Origin: an uncultured Sphingomonadaceae bacterium
GTDB lineage: Bacteria; Pseudomonadota; Alphaproteobacteria; Sphingomonadales; Sphingomonadaceae
Direction: 5' to 3'
Length of the DNA stretch: 64,000 nucleotides
Assembly (NCBI GenBank): GCA_947489315.1
Contig: CANLCX010000005.1
Span: forward strand, 124,001-188,000
Both the position numbers and the translations under genes were made by a program. The notes under the pieces were generated by a model that saw only the letters and a list, made by a program, of their open reading frames with translations, was not told where the DNA came from and made no database searches. Shown piece after piece: positions 8,762 to 37,994 of this stretch (its first letter is position 1; each line of letters opens with the position of its first letter).

Positions 8762-9325
8762 TTATGCACTACCAAACTGACCAGACAGCATATTTGGATC
8801 TATCCCCTGAGACTCCCAAGCCATTTCCCATTTGTCTTTCGCGCTGGTTTCATAGAGCCATTCTGGTTCACCTTGGGTGATCGACCATCCGTTCTGGGTC
8901 AGCTCATATTCCAACTGCCCTGCCCCCCAACCGGAATAACCCAGCGCAGCAATCCATTTTTTGGGCCCGCGATCTTTGGCTATCGCTCCCAATATGTCGA
9001 CAGAACTGCTTAAACCCCAACGATCAGCGACCTGCAGCGTATCTGACAGGTTGAAATCGAGGCTATGGAGAATGAAGCCGCGCTGCATCTCTACCGGTCC
9101 GCCAACGAAAACATTGCGATCCTTTAAATCCTCTGGTGCGATATCAAACTGCTCCAATATACCGTGGAAGCTTATATCGGTTGATGATTCTCCAATATTG
9201 ATACCCAATGCGCCATGTTCATCATGAGAACATATAGCAATGATCGAGCGAGCAAAGCGAGGGTCGGCCATACCTGGTGTGGCAAGCAAAAACTGGCCGG
9301 AAAAATATAAAGGAGCATCCATCAT
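8762..9325 (-). CDS. YqgE/AlgH family protein (UPF0301)
   Basis: 187 residues from the ATG at 9325. This start is chosen because family members begin with a short segment before the conserved YFSGQFLLATPGM, and 187 residues is the usual length. An upstream in-frame ATG at 9358 would add eleven residues and has no better ribosome site. Other family marks are DPRFARSIIAICSHDEHGALGI, VFVGGPVEMQRGFILHS and ALGYSGWGAGQLEYEL. The molecular function is not established. Relatives were linked to alginate regulation in Pseudomonas. It lies downstream of nothing obvious and may be transcribed alone, divergently from the peroxiredoxin. Confidence 0.9.
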   Translation of the reverse strand: MMDAPLYFSGQFLLATPGMADPRFARSIIAICSHDEHGALGINIGESSTDISFHGILEQFDIAPEDLKDRNVFVGGPVEMQRGFILHSLDFNLSDTLQVADRWGLSSSVDILGAIAKDRGPKKWIAALGYSGWGAGQLEYELTQNGWSITQGEPEWLYETSAKDKWEMAWESQGIDPNMLSGQFGSA

Positions 9326-9473
9326 GCTAACATAAGCACCTAATGTCCGGCTGCACATCGTAAATTCGATAAACGGAGCATTATCATTACATTGCTTGCA
9401 ATTTCATGATCCTGTCACCACAAATGCATAGGACATAAAGATATTCCAATAAAACCCGAAAAGGAACGATAGC

Positions 9474-28784: not shown

Positions 28785-30143
28785 TTAGCGAAGCCGTCGC
28801 GCAAGCTTATGGGCAGGTCCAAAACCGATAAAGGCTGCACCGATAAACGGCATAGCGACGACCCAAAGTCGTACACCTGTTACACCCAATGGGCTCGCAA
28901 TACTAATCGCGGCCGTTGCAGCCAGTCCAGCGCAAACGAAAAGCAAGCCGACAATCAATCGCCAGTGCGGAAGATCGGCTCGATCACCCTGCCCGCCGGT
29001 TCCGGCTTGCTCATATTTTGCGAAGATCATGATCAACGGCAATAGAGCGGCAATATAGAGCATGAACCAGATCGGACGCGCCAGCCACCATGATCCGCTT
29101 CCGGGCGCAACTTCCAAACCAATTCCACCGAGTAGCCAAGCGGCCACCATCACCAGAACAAAAGCCGTCAGATGCCAAAGATAGGTGGTCATGATCATGC
29201 CGTTGAGAAGGACCACGCCCGTCCAGATTTTGATATTGTCGAGCATGCGCCGAGCCGCTGGTTCCAGCGCCAAAGCAAAACCGGTTTGCGCGATGCCAAG
29301 CGCAAGCAAGGCTATGGTCGGCGGCATGCTATTGCTAACCGCTTCACCCGGCACCCCGATCATCGCAACCGGATAAGGGCCAAATCCGACCAAAAGGCCA
29401 AGTGCTAATAAACCGCCAACGCCCCAGGTCAGCGCACGCGCAGTGTCGGAAAAATAACCTTCGCTCCAAGCATATCCCAATTGGTGCACAGCGAGCCATA
29501 TGAAGGCAAAGTTCACAAAATTCACATGGGGTATTTTCAAGGCAAAGGTTGCCGCGTCAATGGCTACTGCACCCGCGACCAAAGCCCAGAATGACAACAT
29601 GCCAAAGCGTTTCCAAGCGGCATGGGTAAACGGAACGACGGCTCCCACCATTAAGTAGACCGCCAGAAACCAGACAGGAATCAATGCCAATTGCGTGGCA
29701 AGTTCAACAATTTTGCGATCAACGCCCATAGCGGTACCAAACAGAGCGAATAACGTCCATATCAAGAAGAGCGGTAAAACCGGATTGATGAGACGGCGCA
29801 GGCGGCCGGTAAACCAGCCAGAATAGCTTCCTTCATTCCGCTGGTTTGCCGACCATGAAAGCGCATGCGAAAAACCGCCGACGAGGAAGAAAATAGGCAT
29901 GACCTGAAAACCCCAGGTCAACCACTGTGTCCACGGCAATATACCAAGCAAATGGCCGCCTTGCACCGCACCGTCTTCGATATAAGGCGCCGCCACTAAC
30001 CAATGACCTATAACAACAGCGAGAATGGAAAAAGCGCGCAGAAAATCGACATAACGATTGCGTTCAGGCGGCGCTTTGAGGGCCATCTCCTCGGCCCGGG
30101 ACCAAAGGGTCCGTTTCGCCGCTTTCGCTCCACGTTCACTCAT
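28785..30143 (-). CDS. acyltransferase 3 family membrane protein
   Basis: 452 residues with about ten membrane helices. The start of the membrane domain, RNRYVDFLRAFSILAVVIGHWL, carries the R...D..R...I..V..H pattern of acyltransferase family 3 (OafA/OpgC-type). FQVMPIFFLVGGFSHALSW and the RLRRLINPVLPLFLIW block are also typical. Members acylate sugars on O-antigen, glucans or other exported glycans. The acceptor is unknown because no polysaccharide genes are adjacent. It is transcribed alone. Confidence 0.85.
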   Translation of the reverse strand: MSERGAKAAKRTLWSRAEEMALKAPPERNRYVDFLRAFSILAVVIGHWLVAAPYIEDGAVQGGHLLGILPWTQWLTWGFQVMPIFFLVGGFSHALSWSANQRNEGSYSGWFTGRLRRLINPVLPLFLIWTLFALFGTAMGVDRKIVELATQLALIPVWFLAVYLMVGAVVPFTHAAWKRFGMLSFWALVAGAVAIDAATFALKIPHVNFVNFAFIWLAVHQLGYAWSEGYFSDTARALTWGVGGLLALGLLVGFGPYPVAMIGVPGEAVSNSMPPTIALLALGIAQTGFALALEPAARRMLDNIKIWTGVVLLNGMIMTTYLWHLTAFVLVMVAAWLLGGIGLEVAPGSGSWWLARPIWFMLYIAALLPLIMIFAKYEQAGTGGQGDRADLPHWRLIVGLLFVCAGLAATAAISIASPLGVTGVRLWVVAMPFIGAAFIGFGPAHKLARRLR

Positions 30144-30246
30144 ATATCGCCCTCACATCCCAATATTATATTATTCAGGTAATCACCGCACAGTCCCGTT
30201 CAAGACAAGCCAAACCCATATGTTAGGGCGATAATACTAACAAAAG

Positions 30247-31296
30247 CTATCCCAAGAGATCATGACGCTTCAGCGAATGGCGCAACTGGTCATAGGTTAG
30301 GTTGAGCGCTTTGGCGGTTTGCCGCTGGTTATAGCGCGATTTTGCTAAAGCTGTCTCCAAAATACGCTTTTCGAACGTCTCTACCGCCTCTTTCATGTCA
30401 TCTACTGCCGCAAAGGCAGGTTCGGTCGCAACAGGCGCCGGTGTCGGACTAGCCGGCACTTGCTCGGTGGCATTTTGAGGTTCAACTGGTTGAGTTTGTT
30501 GCGATGGCGTTGCTTGTGGCTTCCAAGGCGATTCAAACGGATCAAATACGATATGATCCACAGGCCGCGAAAAGTCGCTCCACTGATAGACGGCGCGTTC
30601 GATCACATTGCGCAGCTCACGGACATTGCCCGGCCACTGATGTCGCCCCAGCGCTTCGGATGCCAGTTGCCCGAAGCCGGGCCATTGCTCCCACTCCAGC
30701 TCGGCGGCCATACGCCGTCCAAAATAATCTGCCAGAACCGGTATATCACCCTCACGATAACGTAGCGGCGGCAACGTAACGACTTCGAAAGAAAGCCGAT
30801 CGAGCAAGTCTGCCCGAAATGTGCCTTCATCTGCCATTTTGGGAAGATCTGCATTGGTCGCAGCAACAATCCGCACATCCACGCGCTGTGGTCGGGAGGA
30901 ACCAATACGCGTAATCTCTCCATATTCTACCGCACGAAGCAGGCGTTCTTGCGCTGCGGAGGACAAAGTTCCCAGTTCGTCCAAGAACAAGGTACCGCCA
31001 TCCGCTTCTTCAAACCGGCCTACCCGGTTCTTAGTAGCACCGGTAAAGGCGCCCGCTTCATGACCGAATAGCTCAGCCTCGATCAACGTCTCTGGCATGG
31101 CCGCACAGTTTAATGTGATCAAAGGCCCATCCCACCGAGGACTGAGACGATGGAGGCGTTCTGCGATCAACTCTTTACCTGTGCCCCGCTCCCCTATAAC
31201 AAGTACAGGACGGTCCAAGGCGGCTGCGCGGCTGGCCTTTTCTACAGCATCAAGAAAAGCCCCCGACTCCCCGATAAATTTATTTTCACGATCCAT
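30247..31296 (-). CDS. pspF: sigma-54 activator of the phage-shock operon
   Basis: 349 residues from the ATG at 31296; a longer frame begins at a TTG at 31332. Like other PspF proteins it has no N-terminal receiver domain and begins straight into the AAA+ module: FIGESGAFLDAVEKASRAA, Walker A LVIGERGTGKELIAERLH, the sigma-54 contact loop AGAFTGATKN, and Walker B GGTLFLDELG. A proline/glutamine-rich linker leads to a Fis-type HTH at the C-terminus (YNQRQTAKALNLTYDQLRHSLKRH). In known systems PspA holds PspF inactive until membrane stress. It is divergent from the psp operon and its sigma-54 promoter. Confidence 0.94.
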   Translation of the reverse strand: MDRENKFIGESGAFLDAVEKASRAAALDRPVLVIGERGTGKELIAERLHRLSPRWDGPLITLNCAAMPETLIEAELFGHEAGAFTGATKNRVGRFEEADGGTLFLDELGTLSSAAQERLLRAVEYGEITRIGSSRPQRVDVRIVAATNADLPKMADEGTFRADLLDRLSFEVVTLPPLRYREGDIPVLADYFGRRMAAELEWEQWPGFGQLASEALGRHQWPGNVRELRNVIERAVYQWSDFSRPVDHIVFDPFESPWKPQATPSQQTQPVEPQNATEQVPASPTPAPVATEPAFAAVDDMKEAVETFEKRILETALAKSRYNQRQTAKALNLTYDQLRHSLKRHDLLG

Positions 31297-31395
31297 GACC
31301 AATATATAGTGCAAATTCCTATTAAATAGCAATTAATACCATATTCATTTTTGCAGAATTATATATTATACATATATTTCAGTATCTTATAAAAC

Positions 31396-31411
31396 TGGCA
31401 CGCCTCCTGCA
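31396..31411 (+). promoter_or_regulatory. sigma-54 (-24/-12) promoter of the psp operon
   Basis: TGGCACGCCTCCTGCA matches the sigma-54 consensus TGGCACG-N4-TTGCA with a single mismatch, and the invariant GG and GC have the correct spacing. It lies 50 bases before the first small gene of the operon. The AT-rich 31333-31395 segment upstream is the place for PspF enhancer sites and is almost all A/T. Confidence 0.88.
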
Positions 31412-31463
31412 ATGTTAGTTTCGAACCCGCAAGGGACTAGAAATCGACCAAACGGAGGACAAA

Positions 31464-31646
31464 ATGTCAGCAACTACGAAAACAAGCAAATTCGCAAATT
31501 TGAGCAGAACCGATGTTTCTGCGATCATTTCGGTGCTGTTGTTCAGCCTGACAATTTTGATCAGCGCCGTTGGCCCTGCTGAAGCGCAAGGTCCGACCAT
31601 CTCAGAAGATGGTACAGTTTCCCCATCTGTCAGCTACAAAGCGTGA
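31464..31646 (+). CDS. small single-helix membrane protein, first gene of psp operon
   Basis: 60 residues with a strong Shine-Dalgarno sequence (CGGAGGA, five to ten bases before the ATG) directly after the sigma-54 promoter, which makes it very likely to be translated. It has a polar N-terminus, one hydrophobic helix at about 20-40 (AIISVLLFSLTILISAV) and a short tail beginning AEAQGPTISEDG. The helix could also be a signal peptide cleaved after AEA, leaving a peptide of about 18 residues. I know of no named Psp protein of this kind, so its place in the stress response is inferred from position only. Confidence 0.65.
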   Translation: MSATTKTSKFANLSRTDVSAIISVLLFSLTILISAVGPAEAQGPTISEDGTVSPSVSYKA

Positions 31647-31795
31647 CAGGCGAAATGGCCGGGACCCCTTCATTCCCCCTTGCCGAAGTTCGGTCCCGGC
31701 CACCTTTCCAGATTGACGACGTAGAATTTATTGAAGACCAGCCTGAACGTTCGAACCATTCCAGGCACAACGCTAGCAACTACCGGAGTTTAACC

Positions 31796-32467
31796 ATGGG
31801 TATTTTTTCAAGAACACGCGATATCATCGCAGCCAATGTCACAGACATGCTCGATAAGGCGGAGGATCCTTCCAAGCTGATCCGCATGATCATATTGGAA
31901 ATGGAAGAAACCCTTGTTGAGGTCCGCGCTTCTGCTGCCCGCACCATTGCGGATCAAAAGGAAATGCGTCGGCATATTGATAAGCTCAACCAGCTGACCG
32001 AGGACTGGAACGAAAAAGCGCAACTGGCACTGTCGAAAGATCGCGAAGATCTCGCCAAAGCCGCACTGGTTGAAAAACGGAAGGCCTCTGACATGGCTGA
32101 GCAACTATCGGTAGAAATACAGGTTCTTGATGACGCTTTGCGCGCATCGGAAGGCGACATTGCGAAACTGCAAAAGAAATTACAGGAAGCCCGCTCTCGC
32201 CAAAGTGGTTTGATCAATCGCCTAGAAAGCGCCGAGAACCGCTATAAAATCCGCGAAATGTATAATGGCGACAAAGTCCATGATGCATTTTCGAAATTTG
32301 AATATCTCGAACGTCAGGTTGATCATGCCGAAGGCCGCGCCGATGCCCTGAATATGGGTGGCGAGCCAGAAACGCTGGAAAACCAGATCGCTGCGCTGGA
32401 AAGCAATGACAAGGTTGATGATGAATTGGAGGCCATGAAGGCTGCCATGAAGAAAGGTGACAAATAA
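31796..32467 (+). CDS. pspA: phage shock protein A
   Basis: 223 residues from the ATG at 31796, chosen because CCGGAG precedes it and MGIFSRTRDIIAANVTDMLDKAEDP is the canonical PspA N-terminus. The longer open frame upstream is untranslated leader. Almost the entire chain is helical coiled coil, with the membrane-binding amphipathic helix at 1-20 and the PDP-like motif as AEDPSKLIRMI. PspA is an ESCRT-III/Vipp1-family protein that inhibits PspF and, when freed, polymerises on damaged inner membrane. Its stop overlaps pspB (TAATG). Confidence 0.96.
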   Translation: MGIFSRTRDIIAANVTDMLDKAEDPSKLIRMIILEMEETLVEVRASAARTIADQKEMRRHIDKLNQLTEDWNEKAQLALSKDREDLAKAALVEKRKASDMAEQLSVEIQVLDDALRASEGDIAKLQKKLQEARSRQSGLINRLESAENRYKIREMYNGDKVHDAFSKFEYLERQVDHAEGRADALNMGGEPETLENQIAALESNDKVDDELEAMKAAMKKGDK

Positions 32468-32766
32468 TGGAAAACATACTCGTACCTATCTTTGTGGTTG
32501 GCATGCTGTTTATCGGCCTGCCGTGGATCATCTTCCACTATGTCACCAAATGGAAGACTTCGGCCACTATTACCAATGAAGATGAGCAACTGCTCGATGA
32601 ATTGCACAGCATGGCGCGCAAACTGGATGACCGCATGGAAACGATCGAACGGATCATGGCGGCCGACAATCCCAACTGGCGGCAATCGGCCCTGACAGAT
32701 GTCAGCAACGATCCGAAGCCAACACTTGAGAATTTTGACAATCTTTTGAAAAAAGAAAGGCGCTAA
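32467..32766 (+). CDS. pspB: phage shock protein B
   Basis: 99 residues. One N-terminal membrane helix (about 4-26, ILVPIFVVGMLFIGLPWIIFH) is followed by a cytoplasmic coiled coil: DEQLLDELHSMARKLDDRMETIERIMAADNPNWR is the conserved PspB segment. A C-terminal extension of about 30 residues is present. PspB works with PspC to sense membrane stress and release PspA from PspF. The ERIMAAD element resembles the ERIVTD motif in the seven small proteins downstream. Confidence 0.92.
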   Translation: MENILVPIFVVGMLFIGLPWIIFHYVTKWKTSATITNEDEQLLDELHSMARKLDDRMETIERIMAADNPNWRQSALTDVSNDPKPTLENFDNLLKKERR

Positions 32767-32768
32767 CC

Positions 32769-33149
32769 ATGACTTCAACCCGAACGAAATTCTATCTTGA
32801 TAAAAAACGGGCCAAATGGAGTGGTGTTTGTGCAGGGATATCCGATTACACCGGCATTAATGTTATGTGGGTCAGAATTGCAGCAGTGGTTGCGACGGTA
32901 ACTTTCGCCTTCCCTTGGACTTTGGTCGCTTACTGGATCGCGGCAAAATCTGCTGATCCAAAACCCATTGAATTTTACGGCGACAAAGAAGAACGGGAAT
33001 TCTGGCAGGGCGTCCGCCAATCCCCTCGCCGCACGGCACGCGACGTTAAATCACGGTTCCGCGAAATTGACCGCCGACTGGCTGATATGGAACTATATTA
33101 TACAAGCAATAATAGCGCTCTATCCAAAGAAATTGAGCAACTGCGCTAG
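32769..33149 (+). CDS. pspC: phage shock protein C
   Basis: 126 residues. The PspC domain spans about 5-65: FYLDKKRAKWSGVCAGISDYTGINVMWVR is the signature, followed by the membrane helix VVATVTFAFPWTLVAYWIAA. The cytoplasmic C-terminal half ends in EIDRRLADMELYYTSNNSALSKEIEQLR, whose last residues closely match the end of the next gene product (SKEIAQLR). PspC is therefore built of a PspC domain plus the same tail module that the following small proteins carry. Confidence 0.92.
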   Translation: MTSTRTKFYLDKKRAKWSGVCAGISDYTGINVMWVRIAAVVATVTFAFPWTLVAYWIAAKSADPKPIEFYGDKEEREFWQGVRQSPRRTARDVKSRFREIDRRLADMELYYTSNNSALSKEIEQLR

Positions 33150-33182
33150 GTCTTAACAACATCTTCTACTGGAGAAAAAATA

Positions 33183-33428
33183 ATGCCCGCAGAACCAGCG
33201 TTTATCATGGGTGTCATATTGGGAGTGATCGTCACTCTACTCGTACAGGCCTATGGTCGTCGCAAGGCCAAGAAATCTGACGATAATATCGAAAACAGCG
33301 TCCTGACACAGGTGAAAAGAGAGCATCAAGAAGAAATTGCTCATTTGAAAGACCGGATCGTGGTGATGGAGAGAATTGTTACCGATGAAGGGACAAGAGT
33401 TTCCAAAGAAATTGCACAACTGCGCTGA
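33183..33428 (+). CDS. PspB/PspC-tail family small membrane protein 1
   Basis: 81 residues. The N-terminal membrane helix is at about 6-23 (AFIMGVILGVIVTLLVQ), then a charged linker, then a coiled coil ending LKDRIVVMERIVTDEGTRVSKEIAQLR from residue 55. This tail is closest to the PspC C-terminus (NSALSKEIEQLR). Shine-Dalgarno GGAGAA precedes the ATG. It is the first of seven consecutive small genes with this architecture after pspC, and no individual function is known. Confidence 0.82.
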   Translation: MPAEPAFIMGVILGVIVTLLVQAYGRRKAKKSDDNIENSVLTQVKREHQEEIAHLKDRIVVMERIVTDEGTRVSKEIAQLR

Positions 33429-33455
33429 TTGTTTAAAAAATAAGAGGAGAATACT

Positions 33456-33755
33456 ATGAATTGGGGTGGACCGGGATTTGTTATCGCTATCATCGCAGTT
33501 TGCTATGCGGGATATATTATCAATAATTGGATCAGAGCGAAACATGGCTATCCGCTCGAGAATGAGTGGGGCGGAACAACTGACAAGGGCGATCCAAAAG
33601 CCGAACGCAAAATCGAACTTTTATCCCATGAAAACGAAGAACTGGTCGGTAAGATCGACCGTTTGCAGGAACGCTTGGCGGTTCTCGAGAGAATTGCGAC
33701 AGATCCGGCAAAGCGGACAGCGGATGAAATAGAAGCATTGCGGGAGAAGGGTTGA
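33456..33755 (+). CDS. PspB/PspC-tail family small membrane protein 2
   Basis: 99 residues. It has an N-terminal helix at about 7-25 (FVIAIIAVCYAGYIINNW), then RAKHGYPLENEWGG, then a coiled coil ending LQERLAVLERIATDPAKRTADEIEALREKG. The HGYPLE segment recurs in the next protein (NGYPLE), pointing to duplication of this pair. AAGAGGAGA precedes the ATG. The stop overlaps the next start (TGATG). Confidence 0.82.
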   Translation: MNWGGPGFVIAIIAVCYAGYIINNWIRAKHGYPLENEWGGTTDKGDPKAERKIELLSHENEELVGKIDRLQERLAVLERIATDPAKRTADEIEALREKG

Positions 33756-34081
33756 TGGAACCGGACAAAGCATCATTCATTCTCGAAATCCTGCCATATG
33801 CAGCGGTAATCGCCGCGGTTGGAGTTGGCGGCTGGGTGATCACGACCTGGATGCGGATCAAAAACGGATACCCGCTTGAGGGAAGTTGGGGCAACGCGCT
33901 TCATCCCAAAACAGATCAAGAAGCGGTCGAACGGGTCAAACTGTTGACACAAGAAAATGCCGAACTGCGGGCTGAGATCGGGTCCATGAAAGACCGTCTT
34001 GCCAATGTAGAGCGGATTGTGACCGATGACAGCCACCGGCTGACCAACGAAATCGAAGCGTTACGCGCACCAAAGAATTGA
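33755..34081 (+). CDS. PspB/PspC-tail family small membrane protein 3
   Basis: 108 residues from the ATG at 33755, preferred over a TTG one codon earlier because the ATG overlaps the previous TGA (TGATG). The membrane helix is at about 9-27 (ILPYAAVIAAVGVGGWVITTW), followed by RIKNGYPLEGSWGNA (paralogous to protein 2) and a coiled coil with LLTQENAELRAEIGSMKDRLANVERIVTDDSHRLTNEIEALR. Confidence 0.82.
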   Translation: MEPDKASFILEILPYAAVIAAVGVGGWVITTWMRIKNGYPLEGSWGNALHPKTDQEAVERVKLLTQENAELRAEIGSMKDRLANVERIVTDDSHRLTNEIEALRAPKN

Positions 34082-34091
34082 GGAGATTAAT

Positions 34092-34352
34092 ATGGTAGAG
34101 TATCTAGCCCTGATGATCCCCTTTGCCGGCATTGGTGTAGGCGTTTTCGCAATCTGGACCAGTCATCAGCAAAAGATGATGAAGATGCAATCCACTATCT
34201 CGGCCGAAAAAGCAGCGCAATATGCGGCCAATAATGAGAAACTGGAACAACGCGTCCGCGTGTTGGAACGGATTATTACCGACAAGGGCTTTGACTTGGC
34301 TGGCCAGATTGAAAGTCTTCGTGATCAACCTGAAATCAAGGAGCTAAACTAA
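34092..34352 (+). CDS. PspB/PspC-tail family small membrane protein 4
   Basis: 86 residues. The N-terminal helix (YLALMIPFAGIGVGVFAIWTSHQQKM) is clearly paralogous to protein 5 (WLALLIPLAPFGLGALWIWTRHQSKM). The coiled-coil tail reads EQRVRVLERIITDKGFDLAGQIESLRDQ. GAGGAGA sits upstream of the ATG. The stop overlaps the next start (TAATG), so the pair is co-translated. Confidence 0.82.
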   Translation: MVEYLALMIPFAGIGVGVFAIWTSHQQKMMKMQSTISAEKAAQYAANNEKLEQRVRVLERIITDKGFDLAGQIESLRDQPEIKELN

Positions 34353-34618
34353 TGGATTGGTTAGCCTTACTTATCCCCCTAGCACCTTTCGGTCTTGGCG
34401 CTCTTTGGATATGGACCCGTCACCAAAGCAAGATGGTCGACAAACAGAAAGAGCTGATGATGCTCGGTAAAAACGCACCAGAAAGTGACGATAGCCGGCG
34501 CATGAACGAAGATATGAAATATCTGAAAGATCGCGTGGCTGTATTGGAGAAGATAGTCACCGATGAGCGCGGCGCGCGGGAACTAGACCATGAAATAGCA
34601 AAGCTGAAAGATAGCTAG
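34352..34618 (+). CDS. PspB/PspC-tail family small membrane protein 5
   Basis: 88 residues. The first 26 residues form a membrane helix plus HQSKM, nearly repeating protein 4. The tail is MKYLKDRVAVLEKIVTDERGARELDHEIAKLKDS, closest to protein 6 (VKYLKERVAVLEKIATDDRGARDLGNEIEKLRDR). It therefore looks like a chimera or intermediate between the two sub-types of the array. Confidence 0.82.
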   Translation: MDWLALLIPLAPFGLGALWIWTRHQSKMVDKQKELMMLGKNAPESDDSRRMNEDMKYLKDRVAVLEKIVTDERGARELDHEIAKLKDS

Positions 34619-34648
34619 ACTGATTGAATTGAGAGGGAAGAAAAGAAT

Positions 34649-34909
34649 ATGAATCCATTTGAAATGGTTGTTGCCATCATCATCGTCATCACGGTTGGCA
34701 AAGTGGTCAACACCCGCGTTCAGGCCAAACATGGCATTGCGTCGGACGAAGACGGCAACCCTGTGACTTTGGTCGATCCCGACGCCGGACGCCTTCGTGA
34801 TGAAGTCAAATATCTAAAAGAACGCGTCGCCGTTCTGGAAAAAATCGCCACTGATGATCGCGGCGCTCGCGACCTCGGCAACGAAATTGAAAAATTACGG
34901 GACCGCTAA
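34649..34909 (+). CDS. PspB/PspC-tail family small membrane protein 6
   Basis: 86 residues with an N-terminal helix at 4-21 (FEMVVAIIIVITVGKVVN), RVQAKHGIASDEDGNP (related to the AKHGYPLE segment of protein 2) and a tail with LKERVAVLEKIATDDRGARDLGNEIEKLRDR. A purine-rich GAGAGGGAAGAAAAG ribosome site precedes the ATG. The adjacent proteins 5 and 6 share the RGAR element. Confidence 0.82.
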   Translation: MNPFEMVVAIIIVITVGKVVNTRVQAKHGIASDEDGNPVTLVDPDAGRLRDEVKYLKERVAVLEKIATDDRGARDLGNEIEKLRDR

Positions 34910-34951
34910 GCTGGTTACCCAAAAAAGCAGGAAGAGAAGAAGGATAGCATC

Positions 34952-35182
34952 ATGCCAGAACCCAGTTTTTACCTGATGACTGCTGCATTTACCCTGATTG
35001 GACTAACGGCGGTCTCCCTTATCGCCTTGCGCGGATGGCGCGACTGGATTGCGCTGAAGACCAAGGAATTGGACCATCAACGTGAAGAAAATCCCCCCAG
35101 TGCAACATCGCGTATTGAAGTAGCGGACCTGAAGGAACGTATTCGCAAGCTGGAAGCCATCGCCGCAGGCGTGGAACTCTAA
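34952..35182 (+). CDS. PspB/PspC-tail family small membrane protein 7 (shortest)
   Basis: 76 residues. The membrane helix is at about 7-27 (LMTAAFTLIGLTAVSLIALRGW), then a charged linker, then ADLKERIRKLEAIAAGVEL. The tail module is cut short after the LKERxxxLExIA part and lacks the distal EIExLR segment. This is the most divergent and last member of the array. Shine-Dalgarno AGGAAGAGAAGAAGGA is rich and somewhat distant. Confidence 0.78.
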   Translation: MPEPSFYLMTAAFTLIGLTAVSLIALRGWRDWIALKTKELDHQREENPPSATSRIEVADLKERIRKLEAIAAGVEL

Positions 35183-35186
35183 CTAC

Positions 35187-35204
35187 ACTGCCCGAAAGGG
35201 CAGG
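35187..35204 (+). terminator. short hairpin after the psp-type array
   Basis: TGCCC-GAAA-GGGCA is a small stable stem with a GNRA-like tetraloop, just past the stop of the last array gene and followed by purines rather than T residues. It may be an attenuator or transcript end, and is weak as a terminator. Confidence 0.4.
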
Positions 35205-35249
35205 TGAAAAAGGGATGACGCGAATCCCCTGTCCTGCTAGCGGGCGGGG

Positions 35250-35660
35250 ATGAGCAAACTAGATGATCTTGTAGAAGAATATGAATTTCTCGAAGCCGAC
35301 GACCGATACCGGCTTCTGATTGATTTGGGCAAAGAGCTAAAGCCGATGCCCGATGCCCTCAAAACCGATGCCACGTTGGTGCGCGGATGCTCTGCCTCCG
35401 TATGGGTCTACCCTACAAAACTAGACGATGGTCGTCTGCATTTCCTTGCAGACAGTAATGCGGCCATCACCAAAGGCATTATCGCCTTGGTGCTAGAGAC
35501 CGTGCAAGATCAAACGATCGATGCTGTATTGAAAACCAATATTGCGGAAAGACTCGCTCCATTTGATCTGAAAAACCAACTGAGCTCTAACCGGACGCAA
35601 GGCATCCCCAACATGATTGCGTTGATCAATCAAACGGCTGCGCGGTACCAAAAAGCCTAA
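35250..35660 (+). CDS. sufE: SufE family sulfur-acceptor protein
   Basis: 136 residues, normal SufE length. The acceptor cysteine is in LVRGCSASVWVYP (about residue 48), the conserved SufE/CsdE loop. LIDLGKELKPMP and LSSNRTQGIPNMIALI are other family blocks. SufE takes persulfide from a SufS-type cysteine desulfurase for iron-sulfur cluster assembly. No other suf genes are in the window, so this is a stand-alone copy. It converges on the J-domain gene. Confidence 0.93.
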   Translation: MSKLDDLVEEYEFLEADDRYRLLIDLGKELKPMPDALKTDATLVRGCSASVWVYPTKLDDGRLHFLADSNAAITKGIIALVLETVQDQTIDAVLKTNIAERLAPFDLKNQLSSNRTQGIPNMIALINQTAARYQKA

Positions 35661-36193
35661 ACAGGCTTCCAGACCCGGCGTTCTTCCGCGATTTTCAGTA
35701 CATCGAAAGCCGCTTGCGCCGCCTGAAACTTCTTCGCAGCTTCCGCATCGCCGGGATTGACATCGGGATGATATTCCTTTGCCATCGACCGCCATGCTTT
35801 TTTGACAGCCTCAAAATCGACATCCGGTGTCAGGTCAAATATCTCTAACGCCGTCATTTCATCACGGGATCGACTACCATCGCCAGACCCCATCCAGCTG
35901 TAATGCGCGGCTTCCTGATAGGCATTGGCATCGCGCTGCTCATCGGCTTCGCGTTTTTTTCGTTCTTCTTTGTCGAGGCCTTCGAAATAGTCCCAACCGC
36001 GATTATATTCGGCGGCATGAGTTTGACAGAAATGCCAACGCTCGGGACTATTGGGCGATTTTGGCGCCGGACAAATGCCCGCTTGATCACAGCCATGCCG
36101 ATCGCACATCTGCATCTGCTCCGTCTCGCGAGAGCTTTCGTAGCTTCCCCAGCGAGGAAAACCCCAATTATCGGATCGTTTTGCTTTTGGCAT
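35657..36193 (-). CDS. C-terminal J-domain protein with Cys/His-containing N-terminus
   Basis: 178 residues from the ATG at 36193, where the family-like MPKAKRSDNWGFPRWG begins. The N-terminal half has CDRHGCDQAGICPAP and WHFCQTHAAEYNRGWDYFEGL, a possible metal-binding Cys/His set. The C-terminal 60 residues are a J-domain with the essential HPD in KEYHPDVNPGD. It should stimulate DnaK ATPase, with the N-terminal part choosing the client. It resembles the DjlA-independent J-proteins common in alphaproteobacteria. Its 3' end overlaps that of sufE by four bases. Confidence 0.88.
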   Translation of the reverse strand: MPKAKRSDNWGFPRWGSYESSRETEQMQMCDRHGCDQAGICPAPKSPNSPERWHFCQTHAAEYNRGWDYFEGLDKEERKKREADEQRDANAYQEAAHYSWMGSGDGSRSRDEMTALEIFDLTPDVDFEAVKKAWRSMAKEYHPDVNPGDAEAAKKFQAAQAAFDVLKIAEERRVWKPV

Positions 36194-36240
36194 ATCACTC
36201 TCTAACAAAGGCCTTCCGCGAGTTCCAGCCAAATCTAAAT

Positions 36241-36630
36241 ACCAGAGGGTCTATAAGCCGGGTTCTGTCCATTCTCTTGCGAGAAATAGCCAGTCATTCA
36301 TCTTGGCGATGCATTGCTGCGCCGCTCTAGCAACCAACCCGGGCTGCAGGCCGAAATAGCCATATGCCGCCCCTATTTGGTTTTGCTCCAGGTGGGGTTT
36401 ACCGTGCCAAATCTGTTGCCAGATCCGCGGTGCGCTCTTACCGCACCCTTTCATTATCACGCTGCCTAAGCATTAGGCCGAAGCCGACGCGACCTACTTT
36501 CTGTTGCACTGTCCCTGAACAGGCGATCACTCCCCTGCCCGCCGGACGTTATCCGGCACCTTTAAATCGTGGAGCCCGGACTTTCCTCGCGAATATTTGC
36601 ATATTCCCGCGACTGGCCGACCCTCTGGTC
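36241..36630 (-). ncRNA. rnpB: RNase P RNA, bacterial class A
   Basis: About 390 nucleotides on the minus strand. The 5' end GACCAGAGGGTC pairs with the 3' GACCCTCTGGT to make helix P1. Diagnostic conserved segments follow in order: GAGGAAAGTCCGGGCTCC (CRI), an AGTGCAACAGAAAG block, GGCACGGTAAACCCC and the 3' ACAGAACCCGGCTTATAGACC. RNase P RNA is the catalytic part of the enzyme that trims the 5' ends of tRNA precursors. Open frames that cross this region are therefore not genes. Confidence 0.95.
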
Positions 36631-36634
36631 CGCT

Positions 36635-37333
36635 CTATTTAGAGATTCCGCGCTCTCTGTCGAGCATTAACGACAATAAAATCGCGCGGCTCTCACCGTC
36701 GATGACACCGTCGATGTTTTTGGGACGAAACCGTCGCTGAAAGGCAATCACGGCATCTTTCTCTGCGGTAATATCATAACCAAAACGCTCCAGCGCCAGC
36801 ATGAAGCCGCCATCGGTCCAAGGCGGATCGCCCAGATTTAATGGTGGTTTCTTAAGCGCTATGCCGAGCTTTGCGAGTCTGTCCCAATCAAATAGTTCGC
36901 CCGGGTCCTGCTTTCGTGCCGGAGCAAGGTCACTGTGACCAATAACATTAGATGGAACAATATTGTGCCGTTTGACGATATCATGCGCGAGCCGCGTGAC
37001 CGAATCCATCTGCTCTTCAGGGAATGGCACATAGCCCCATTCATGGCCCGGATTGACAATCTCTATGCCGATACTGGCACTATTCACATCGCCAATGCCG
37101 CGCCATTTACCGCGACCGGCATGCCAAGCGCGCTGTTCTTCCTTCACCATGCTCACGACTTGACCATCTTCGGTCACAACATAATGGGCAGAAACCTTTG
37201 CATCAGGATTGGCCAGCCAGTTAATCGCCGATGCGGCATCTTTCATACCGGTATAATGCATGACCAATATACTGACCGGCAGCTTGCGTTCGTCAAAATT
37301 GGGAGAAGGCGTCCAGATCATGTCCATGGTCAT
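36635..37333 (-). CDS. N-acetylmuramoyl-L-alanine amidase (AmpD/AmiD type) with peptidoglycan-binding domain
   Basis: 232 residues. The amidase_2 domain spans about 10-155: zinc ligands are the His in LVMHYTGM, the His in IGHSDLAPARKQDPG and the Asp of the same motif, with AWHAGRGKWRG and SIGIEIVNPG typical of the family. The C-terminal 60 residues (MLALERFGYDI, VIAFQRRFRPKNIDG) are a peptidoglycan-binding domain 1. There is no signal peptide, so it is probably cytoplasmic and recycles anhydro-muropeptides like AmpD. The stop codon is embedded in the rnpB promoter. Confidence 0.92.
   Translation of the reverse strand: MTMDMIWTPSPNFDERKLPVSILVMHYTGMKDAASAINWLANPDAKVSAHYVVTEDGQVVSMVKEEQRAWHAGRGKWRGIGDVNSASIGIEIVNPGHEWGYVPFPEEQMDSVTRLAHDIVKRHNIVPSNVIGHSDLAPARKQDPGELFDWDRLAKLGIALKKPPLNLGDPPWTDGGFMLALERFGYDITAEKDAVIAFQRRFRPKNIDGVIDGESRAILLSLMLDRERGISK
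36636..36663 (-). promoter_or_regulatory. rnpB promoter overlapping the end of the amidase gene
   Basis: On the minus strand TCGACA (36663-36658), a 16-base spacer and TAAATA (36641-36636) fit -35/-10 elements, placed about six bases before the RNase P RNA 5' end. The -10 box contains the amidase stop codon. Confidence 0.6.
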
Positions 37334-37355
37334 TGCCCTTCTTCCATATCAATTA

Positions 37356-37994
37356 TCAGACAACAATGGCGCCGAGCAAAAGCTCTGTGTCAGATGCTGG
37401 CGATATTCTCAAATCACCGCCATTTGAGCACGAGAGTTCGCGCGACATCCAGGCTGCAGCGGTACGAGCGGTGAGCTCAGACTGGGGCAAAGTCCCTTCG
37501 AGAGCCGCGCGAATACCATCATCCAAAGCGATTTTCGGACCTTCGGCGCGAATAACCACTTCTACACCATTATCGCCCTGCTCTGCTCCGACGTCCAGTT
37601 TCCCGCCGCGCACCAGCGCTTCTCTCGCAATCAGGGCGAGGTTGAGTAATATCTTAATGGCCTTTTTGGGCACTGTTCCGGTTTGCACTGCCCAACCCAA
37701 AATGATCTTGCCCTGATCACCAACGAGGCTTTCAACGAGCTGTTTCGCTTCGGCAGGGTCAACTTCATCGCCGAATCCGCCTGCAGCGCCAAAGGCCAAG
37801 CGGAAATATTTCAGCTTATCCGCTGATGCCCTGGCACTGTCAGCCAATAAGTCCATGCAGCGATCCCGCATTTCTGGATCAGTTTCATCCTCAAGCAGCT
37901 CAAGCCCATTATTAATCGCTCCAACCGGGCTCAACAAATCATGACATAATTTCGAACACAGCAAGGCAGCAAGATCGACACCGGATTGAGACAT
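37356..37994 (-). CDS. chpT: histidine phosphotransferase ChpT
   Basis: 212 residues. The phosphorylated His lies in ALLCSKLCHDLLSPVGAINNGLELL (about residue 18), exactly the ChpT DHp motif. The C-terminal part is the degenerate, ATP-free kinase-like domain. ChpT moves phosphate from the hybrid kinase CckA to CtrA and CpdR, the alphaproteobacterial cell-cycle relay. CtrA itself is not in the window. ChpT supports the alphaproteobacterial assignment. It lies 27 bases after the JAMM gene. Confidence 0.92.
   Translation of the reverse strand: MSQSGVDLAALLCSKLCHDLLSPVGAINNGLELLEDETDPEMRDRCMDLLADSARASADKLKYFRLAFGAAGGFGDEVDPAEAKQLVESLVGDQGKIILGWAVQTGTVPKKAIKILLNLALIAREALVRGGKLDVGAEQGDNGVEVVIRAEGPKIALDDGIRAALEGTLPQSELTARTAAAWMSRELSCSNGGDLRISPASDTELLLGAIVV

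Follow-up and report, generated by a model that had tools for sequence, protein, structure and literature searches.

Immediately downstream of the phage shock protein (Psp) genes pspABC, in a 64,000-nucleotide stretch of DNA from an uncultured Sphingomonadaceae bacterium (contig CANLCX010000005.1, positions 124,001 to 188,000, assembly GCA_947489315.1; the whole stretch is referred to as the window), lie seven consecutive small genes, here named g1 to g7. The array looks real, old and conserved, and its function is suggested by sequence: with moderate confidence, the seven products are read as membrane adaptors that would add PspA-docking coiled coils under stress. The locus comprises the following features:

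30247-31332, minus strand: pspF-like sigma-54 activator gene (Pfam Sigma54_activat 5.9e-62, HTH_8 2.1e-7), divergent from the operon and adjoining pspA
31396-31411, plus strand: sigma-54 (-24/-12) promoter-like site TGGCACGCCTCCTGCA, strict pattern, upstream of the operon
31799-32467, plus strand: pspA (PF04012 8.5e-39)
32467-32766, plus strand: pspB (PF06667 4.4e-27, TIGR02976 1.5e-25; both above the curated cut-off)
32769-33149, plus strand: pspC, with tail RRLADMELYYTSNNSALSKEIEQLR (PF04024 2.4e-13, TIGR02978 9.9e-35; both above the curated cut-off)
33183-33428, plus strand: g1, type F, 81 amino acids (aa), predicted transmembrane helix at about 6-23 and a PspC-like tail
33456-33755, plus strand: g2, type A, 99 aa, KHGYPLE...tail; under purifying selection
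33755-34081, plus strand: g3, type B, 108 aa, KNGYPLEGSWG...tail; start overlaps the g2 stop; modelled with AlphaFold2
34092-34352, plus strand: g4, type C, 86 aa, Pfam PspB match at 0.004, below cut-off
34352-34618, plus strand: g5, type G, 88 aa, start overlaps the g4 stop; type limited to the window genus and close kin
34649-34909, plus strand: g6, type D, 86 aa, a type present in 75 of 77 arrays
34952-35182, plus strand: g7, type E, 76 aa, last gene, with half tail SRIEVADLKERIRKLEAIAAGVEL

The open reading frames (ORFs) of the array lie where a preliminary description of this DNA had placed them, from 33183 to 35182 on the plus strand after pspABC, and encode 76-108 aa each. The gap between pspC and g1 is 33 base pairs (bp), and those between array genes range from -1 to 42 bp. 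Each gene had been credited with its own ribosome site or a start-stop overlap, and this is what is seen: purine-rich stretches resembling ribosome sites can be recognized by eye 5′ of g1, g2, g4, g6 and g7, and the start codons of g3 and g5 lie within the stop of the preceding gene.

The proposed function turns on the C-terminal tails, which had been likened to those of PspB and PspC, and profile alignments with both families, run with shuffle and reversal controls, bear out this likeness. A profile of 40 array sequences aligned with 79 PspC sequences at 93.9% in hhalign (E 1.6e-7, for a single pair) through the final LR, and with 80 PspB sequences at 95.3% (E 2.4e-8) from the first PspB residue to about residue 65, the PspB and PspC sets each containing the window's own copy twice. 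Reversed profiles reached 3.0% (PspC) and 3.5% (PspB), and tail-only scores of 34.3 (PspC) and 24.5 (PspB) lay above the highest values reached in 100 column shuffles (22.8 and 19.7). By eye, the conserved positions R-x4-E-x3-T[D/S]-x8-I-x2-L-R are equally spaced in array and PspC tails. As a profile the array carries a PspC-type zipper tail, of which g7 has the first half only. For g1, g3 and g4 the top NCBIfam match is the PspC model TIGR02978, at sub-cut-off E values of 5e-4 to 6e-3 and over the model's last 50-69 positions; g5 has a weak NCBIfam match to PspB, and the Pfam PspB model weakly matches g4 and g5. Overall, the array proteins look like a PspB-type front joined to a PspC-type ending.

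The array genes are nevertheless not copies of pspB, because the array profile finds proteins of other families, unlinked to psp genes, at E values of 8e-20 to 6e-9 and because all seven proteins miss the PspB family cut-offs (PF06667, 25.6 bits; TIGR02976, 51.7 bits), which pspB itself passes. Their best scores against PspB models are 17.6 (g4) and 17.2 (g1) bits, and the array profile recovers PspB itself at about 1e-4 to 1e-3 in some genomes, a far poorer fit than to the unlinked proteins; a recent pspB duplication is hence not supported. The array looks like a separate family that was recruited to the psp operon and then expanded. In E. coli both the interaction with PspA and the induction of psp depend on the zipper region of PspC (PMC3068692; papers are cited here and below from excerpts). 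PspA docking is proposed because the array tail resembles this zipper, a PspA-contact determinant in E. coli.

The rest of the protein fits the PspB-like anatomy that had been described, a membrane helix followed by a cytoplasmic coiled coil, as far as hydropathy, charge and a model of g3 predict. All seven proteins have one membrane helix with an excess of K and R in the 15 residues that follow it relative to those ahead of it, a pattern shared by 335 of 342 array proteins (the window's seven included), reversed in 5 and equal in 2. This charge pattern predicts that the N-terminus is outside and the C-terminus inside. AlphaFold2 models g3 as two helices, 3-37 and 54-104, separated by a low-confidence linker (mean predicted local distance difference test score, pLDDT, 76.5; predicted template modelling score, pTM, 0.32); the g3 and PspC models consist mostly of helices, at pTM 0.32-0.33. 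A likeness to solved structures was considered and dropped, the five weak profile matches (best, KcsA-type channel 3pjs, E 0.0026) being taken as chance, and a phage origin was likewise rejected, PHROGs giving a single weak match (g3, 0.0024, function unknown).

The claim that all seven proteins share the same tail motif holds for six, which have the whole motif, and in part for g7. In an alignment of all seven proteins, R58, E63 and I65 (numbered as in g1) are the same in every row. Searched against the whole genome at E<=0.001, the 40-sequence profile of non-g7 types matches g1 to g6 only, and a g7-type profile finds g7 as its sole match; the shared motif therefore exceeds chance. Comparing g2-g7 with five relatives gave ratios of nonsynonymous to synonymous substitution (dN/dS, Nei-Gojobori) of 0.01-0.18 in 24 of 30 cases; the other 6 were saturated, and the figures are rough, since many dS values exceed 1. 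Chance or spurious ORFs are ruled out by the uniqueness of the profile matches and by dN/dS, and g2 to g7 are under purifying selection. For g1 no orthologue was found in loci L003, L004, L005 or L007 of relatives, where its best matches are 39-45% identical with dN/dS, where defined, of 0.31-0.35; the gene at the position of g1 in L016 is 43% identical to it.

The spread of the array was followed in psp loci fetched as the best 80 of 536 PspA relatives (L003-L082), a set biased to close relatives. Three loci (L010, L011 and L078) end within about 520 bp of pspA and are uninformative. Among the 77 informative loci that remain, 76 carry an array of 2-8 genes, so that absence of the array beside pspA in close relatives, which the preliminary description had named as a possible objection, is confined to L036; with the window added there are 77 arrays, some of them cut by contig ends (for example, L047). 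The window's family is taken here as Sphingomonadaceae in the GTDB sense, NCBI placing Sphingobium in Sphingobiaceae. A tail-profile search for copy number and psp linkage, as had been suggested, shows the array to be multi-copy and psp-linked in this family. In a separate sample of the order (147 genomes), 133 match the non-E array profile, including 86 of 86 genomes of the family with 2-7 matches each (median 5). The distance between an array match and pspB is 0.7-2.2 kilobases (kb) in all 66 genomes compared, these being the family genomes, of the 86, with a position among the matches listed and among the 80 searched for pspB.

Array proteins (342) were sorted into seven types, A to G, with iterative hidden Markov models (HMMs) seeded by motifs. 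The order F-A-B-C-G-D-E, with omissions and tandem repeats, is kept in 76 of 77 arrays (the exception being L075); type E comes last in 76 of the 77. The commonest arrays are ABCDE (17), ABDE (12), ABCGDE (8) and ACDE (8), with DE only in 5. Of 249 proteins of types A to E, 248 have a protein of their own type as BLAST best match in the window. In a quick tree of 78 rows and few columns, types B, C, F and G each fall on one side of a branch with support of 95-100 (Shimodaira-Hasegawa-like approximate likelihood ratio test), and types A and D need two changes, with which one origin remains compatible. The agreement of types, tree and BLAST is not wholly independent, because types were assigned partly by motif and HMM. 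Within types A to E, the window group (the window and L003-L018) and the remaining loci share 58-94% identity in tails, with a median of 94% between the window group and other genera for type-E tails; type F, with 7 of the 342 proteins, is lower at 44% (tail) and 30% (N-part). The sequences indicate that types A to E are old, with their order kept across genera; types F and G have a narrower distribution, as have second copies of A, C or D. The earlier idea of a locally duplicated family thus survives in that a tandem family stands beside pspABC, but it is neither copied from PspB nor a recent local burst.

This pattern bears on two other explanations. The tandem copies could have arisen by unequal recombination as a selfish or neutral amplification, without separate roles, as the range of 2-8 genes per array, the second copies and the restricted types F and G might suggest. 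A short ORF in L013 (2403-2558), whose front is of type A and whose tail is of type C, points the same way, and looks like recombination between array genes or an artefact of a metagenome-assembled genome. The dN/dS values of g2 to g7, where computable, and the retention of types across genera and in order speak against this; the account is very improbable, and for g2 to g7, g1 being excepted, it is largely refuted by the selection data. The second explanation is one of divided sensing, in which the helix and linker of each paralogue would recognise a different envelope lesion or client and the shared tail would serve as a common PspA output. Two types of one genome (E excluded) have a median identity of 17% in their N-parts and 48% in their tails, whereas N-parts of one type, for A to E, are 36-57% identical between the window group and other genera; linkers differ as well (GYPLE...W in A and B, AEKAAQYA in C), and the conserved order would suit distinct roles. 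No ligand or lesion specificity is known, however, and the existence of DE-only arrays (5 of 77) means that any extra senses are optional, so that divided sensing is possible yet on the unlikely side. Between types C and D, a micro-ORF of about 35-40 aa with one hydrophobic stretch and a basic end was seen in the four loci looked at (L027, between 10267 and 10431, with similar ones in L037, L046 and L058).

The array has the position of a Psp regulon member, lying on the pspABC strand of the same locus behind the sigma-54 site, which is the sole strict site within 30000-36000 of the window. Of 81 loci (the window and L003-L082), 74 have the strict pattern in the 750 bp before pspA, against 0.0006 expected per 750 bp. 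Sigma-70-like sites are at background (7 found, 5.8 expected), whereas terminator-like sites are in excess, with 12 found where 5.5 are expected. Four of the 12 lie on the plus strand, and a weak one among these four, at 33493-33510 inside the array, would, if real, argue against a single uninterrupted transcript. Zymomonas mobilis presumably belongs to the window's family. Its psp genes respond to ethanol, xylose or temperature, and the excerpts name ZMO1061-ZMO1065, with array genes not among them (PMC3495753, PMC8645129, PMC8237431).

Taken together, the proposed mechanism is as follows. The products of the seven genes would be small proteins of the Psp envelope-stress system that cross the inner membrane once, by a single helix, with the N-terminus outside; a linker characteristic of each type would lead to an amphipathic helix in the cytoplasm that is akin to the PspC zipper. 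The array is apparently one transcription unit with pspABC, and given its position downstream of these genes behind the PspF/sigma-54 promoter, stress should raise it along with PspA. Many tails would then be placed at the membrane alongside PspA, where they may pair as coiled coils with PspA, PspB, PspC and one another, the mixed pairing amounting to the hetero-oligomers that had been suggested. Such pairing would raise the local PspA concentration and compete with PspF; dense, mixed docking arms could hold PspA at the membrane, keep PspA off PspF, or both. The differing linkers may set reach or sense different faults.

Relatives of the tail extend well beyond the window's family. In a class-level sample (241 genomes) G297 is the sole strong match outside the family, 11 further genomes giving weak matches (E 1e-6 to 1e-3) that are not counted as positive. 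With G297 counted in, the order's other families supply 45 genomes with matches at E below 1e-8 (8e-20 to 6e-9); the copy is unlinked to pspB in 43, 6 have a psp-linked copy and 4 have both. In L110, L112 and L115 the unlinked copy lies directly 3′ of the primary sigma factor gene (Sigma70 domains), preceded in L110 by dnaG, and in L105 and L117 that gene is about 2 kb away (in L119 by resemblance only). A phylum sample of 348 genomes yielded 55 with matches, of which 22 belong to the order, 25 are strong matches outside it and 8 are weak ones that are not counted as positive. In the 25 strong-match genomes, a comparison by eye places the best match either on a different contig from pspB or no less than 79 kb from it. 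In 20 stretches from 15 of these genomes (two belong to the window's class, the others to different classes) the genes stand singly or in pairs, in varied surroundings. Seven unlinked homologues (five of these and two of the order) all have PspB or PspC as their top NCBIfam match, below cut-off, and PspB is among the weak Pfam matches of five. One further psp locus outside the family (L120, 4671-5566, minus strand) has two PspB-like genes flanking a PspC-like gene.

The homologues also co-occur with pspB. Outside the order, pspB is present in 25 of 25 strong-match genomes and in 2 of 51 chosen genomes without a match; counted by family, it is present in 6 of 6 and 2 of 22 (p 7e-5), with one family on both sides. 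The comparison is confounded by phylogeny: two families supply 18 of the 25 positives, and the 51 negatives, selected by handle, come from 22 families, of which one also holds positives. Within the order but outside the window's family, pspB is found in 44 of 44 tail-positive and 12 of 17 tail-negative genomes (p 0.001), where G002, G006 and G040, whose weak matches overlap or adjoin pspB, are counted as negative; with these as positive and G297 included, the counts are 48 of 48 and 9 of 14 (p 3.1e-4). There is, in short, an unnamed wider family that is mostly unlinked to psp elsewhere and still co-occurs with pspB. Membership of the outside homologues in a PspF regulon was tested with a negative outcome, since of 42 genes, 4 of them psp-linked, one (L145) has a strict sigma-54 site before it and 4 have a looser pattern, for which 0.05 sites are expected per 300 bp; as a guess, they may be constitutive. 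A bolder proposal, held tentatively, is that the family forms a third PspBC-type adaptor class, present outside the operon across psp-bearing Proteobacteria, which in Sphingomonadaceae was captured and multiplied into an ordered, stress-induced set that would build a mixed-subunit docking belt for the ESCRT-III-like PspA (ESCRT, endosomal sorting complex required for transport).

Several observations weigh against PspA-docking adaptors, beginning with the confounded pspB comparison, its negatives selected by handle, and the near absence of sigma-54 sites outside the family. Taken singly, g2, g6 and g7 match no PspB or PspC model in Pfam or NCBIfam at E<=1, and g1, g3, g4 and g5 reach such models below cut-off only. 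The tail of g7 is confined to the first half (LKERIRKLEAIA), with the terminal L-x-x-E-I-x-x-L-R absent, and the PspC C-terminus was modelled as a single helix, in a poor model (pLDDT 58.7). E. coli PspB contacts PspC and not PspA directly (PMC3068692), so that PspA binding does not follow from a similar coiled coil. The array is dispensable, since L036 (Sphingobium vermicomposti) has pspABC with pspC followed by sufE (9320-9407) and no array, and since five arrays consist of two genes only (DE). Two of 80 family genomes, G045 and G124, have array matches without a pspB match, which argues against strict dependence on pspB.

Some of these points would suit generic coiled-coil adaptors that self-assemble or serve another partner, the likeness to PspC tails being convergent and the operon position a regulatory convenience: outside homologues mostly lie away from psp, some beside the primary sigma factor gene, nearly all lack a sigma-54 site, the g3 model shows merely helices at its low pTM, and three array proteins match no Psp model singly. 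Convergence sits poorly with equal spacing through the exact C-terminus, upheld by the shuffle and reversal controls, and with the co-occurrence with pspB even when unlinked, and this account seems improbable. Docking of PspA by the array remains the preferred reading.

Around the array, sufE follows directly, and a perfect hairpin (CTGCCC-GAAA-GGGCAG, 35188-35203) just 3′ of g7, with no T-run after it, may mark the end or attenuation of the operon before sufE. A class A RNase P RNA lies at 36238-36628 on the minus strand (Rfam RF00010, 287.8 bits), and a scan of 29000-37500 found no other Rfam family. PspA of the window shares 98% identity with its counterpart in L003 (uncultured Sphingomonadaceae bacterium) and 90% with the one in L016 (Parasphingorhabdus marina). 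A 60-aa leader ORF with one hydrophobic stretch (31464-31646, plus strand) is found between the sigma-54 site and pspA; it has no Pfam match, is 90-92% identical in L003-L008, and has tblastn matches at E<=1 in 38 of the upstream regions searched (window included), 18 of them below 1e-5. Its position corresponds to the place that the excerpted Zymomonas text gives for ZMO1062 ('pspD').

PspA is a bacterial ESCRT-III relative. To our knowledge, what is known of its recruitment to damaged membrane comes mainly from enterobacteria, with their one PspB and one PspC. With 2-8 distinct, selected versions of a presumed PspA-docking tail, the arrays would offer a natural dissection of the PspA contact, and the homologues lying away from psp genes in psp-bearing genomes of other classes point to an adaptor that has been overlooked and could be removed with the operon left intact.

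Among known systems, PspD and PspG are small accessory Psp proteins of enterobacteria, and in this they are like the array proteins; neither family is among the Pfam or NCBIfam matches of the array at E<=1. PspG contacts PspC (PMC3068692). PspB duplicates within psp operons are mentioned, with one example accession, AOL22920.1, by Ravi et al. 2024 (PMC11237479). As extra PspB-like genes in the operon they resemble the array, of which AOL22920.1 may be a representative in another genus; compared by description only, they come without the array's size, types, order, PspC-like ending or orphan family, and beyond this mention the open-licence literature, as excerpted, yielded no description of an ordered array. 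PspB itself (PF06667, TIGR02976) shares with the array proteins an N-terminal single helix, a coiled coil with R-x4-E-R-I and a similar size, and is set apart by their sub-cut-off scores, the PspC-type ending in six of them and the several types per genome. In relation to PspC, the array proteins differ in having a single helix and no PspC domain (PF04024 matches none of g1 to g7 at E<=1), yet they resemble its zipper (TIGR02978, about 72-121) in tail positions, in spacing to the final LR, in membrane anchoring and in operon.

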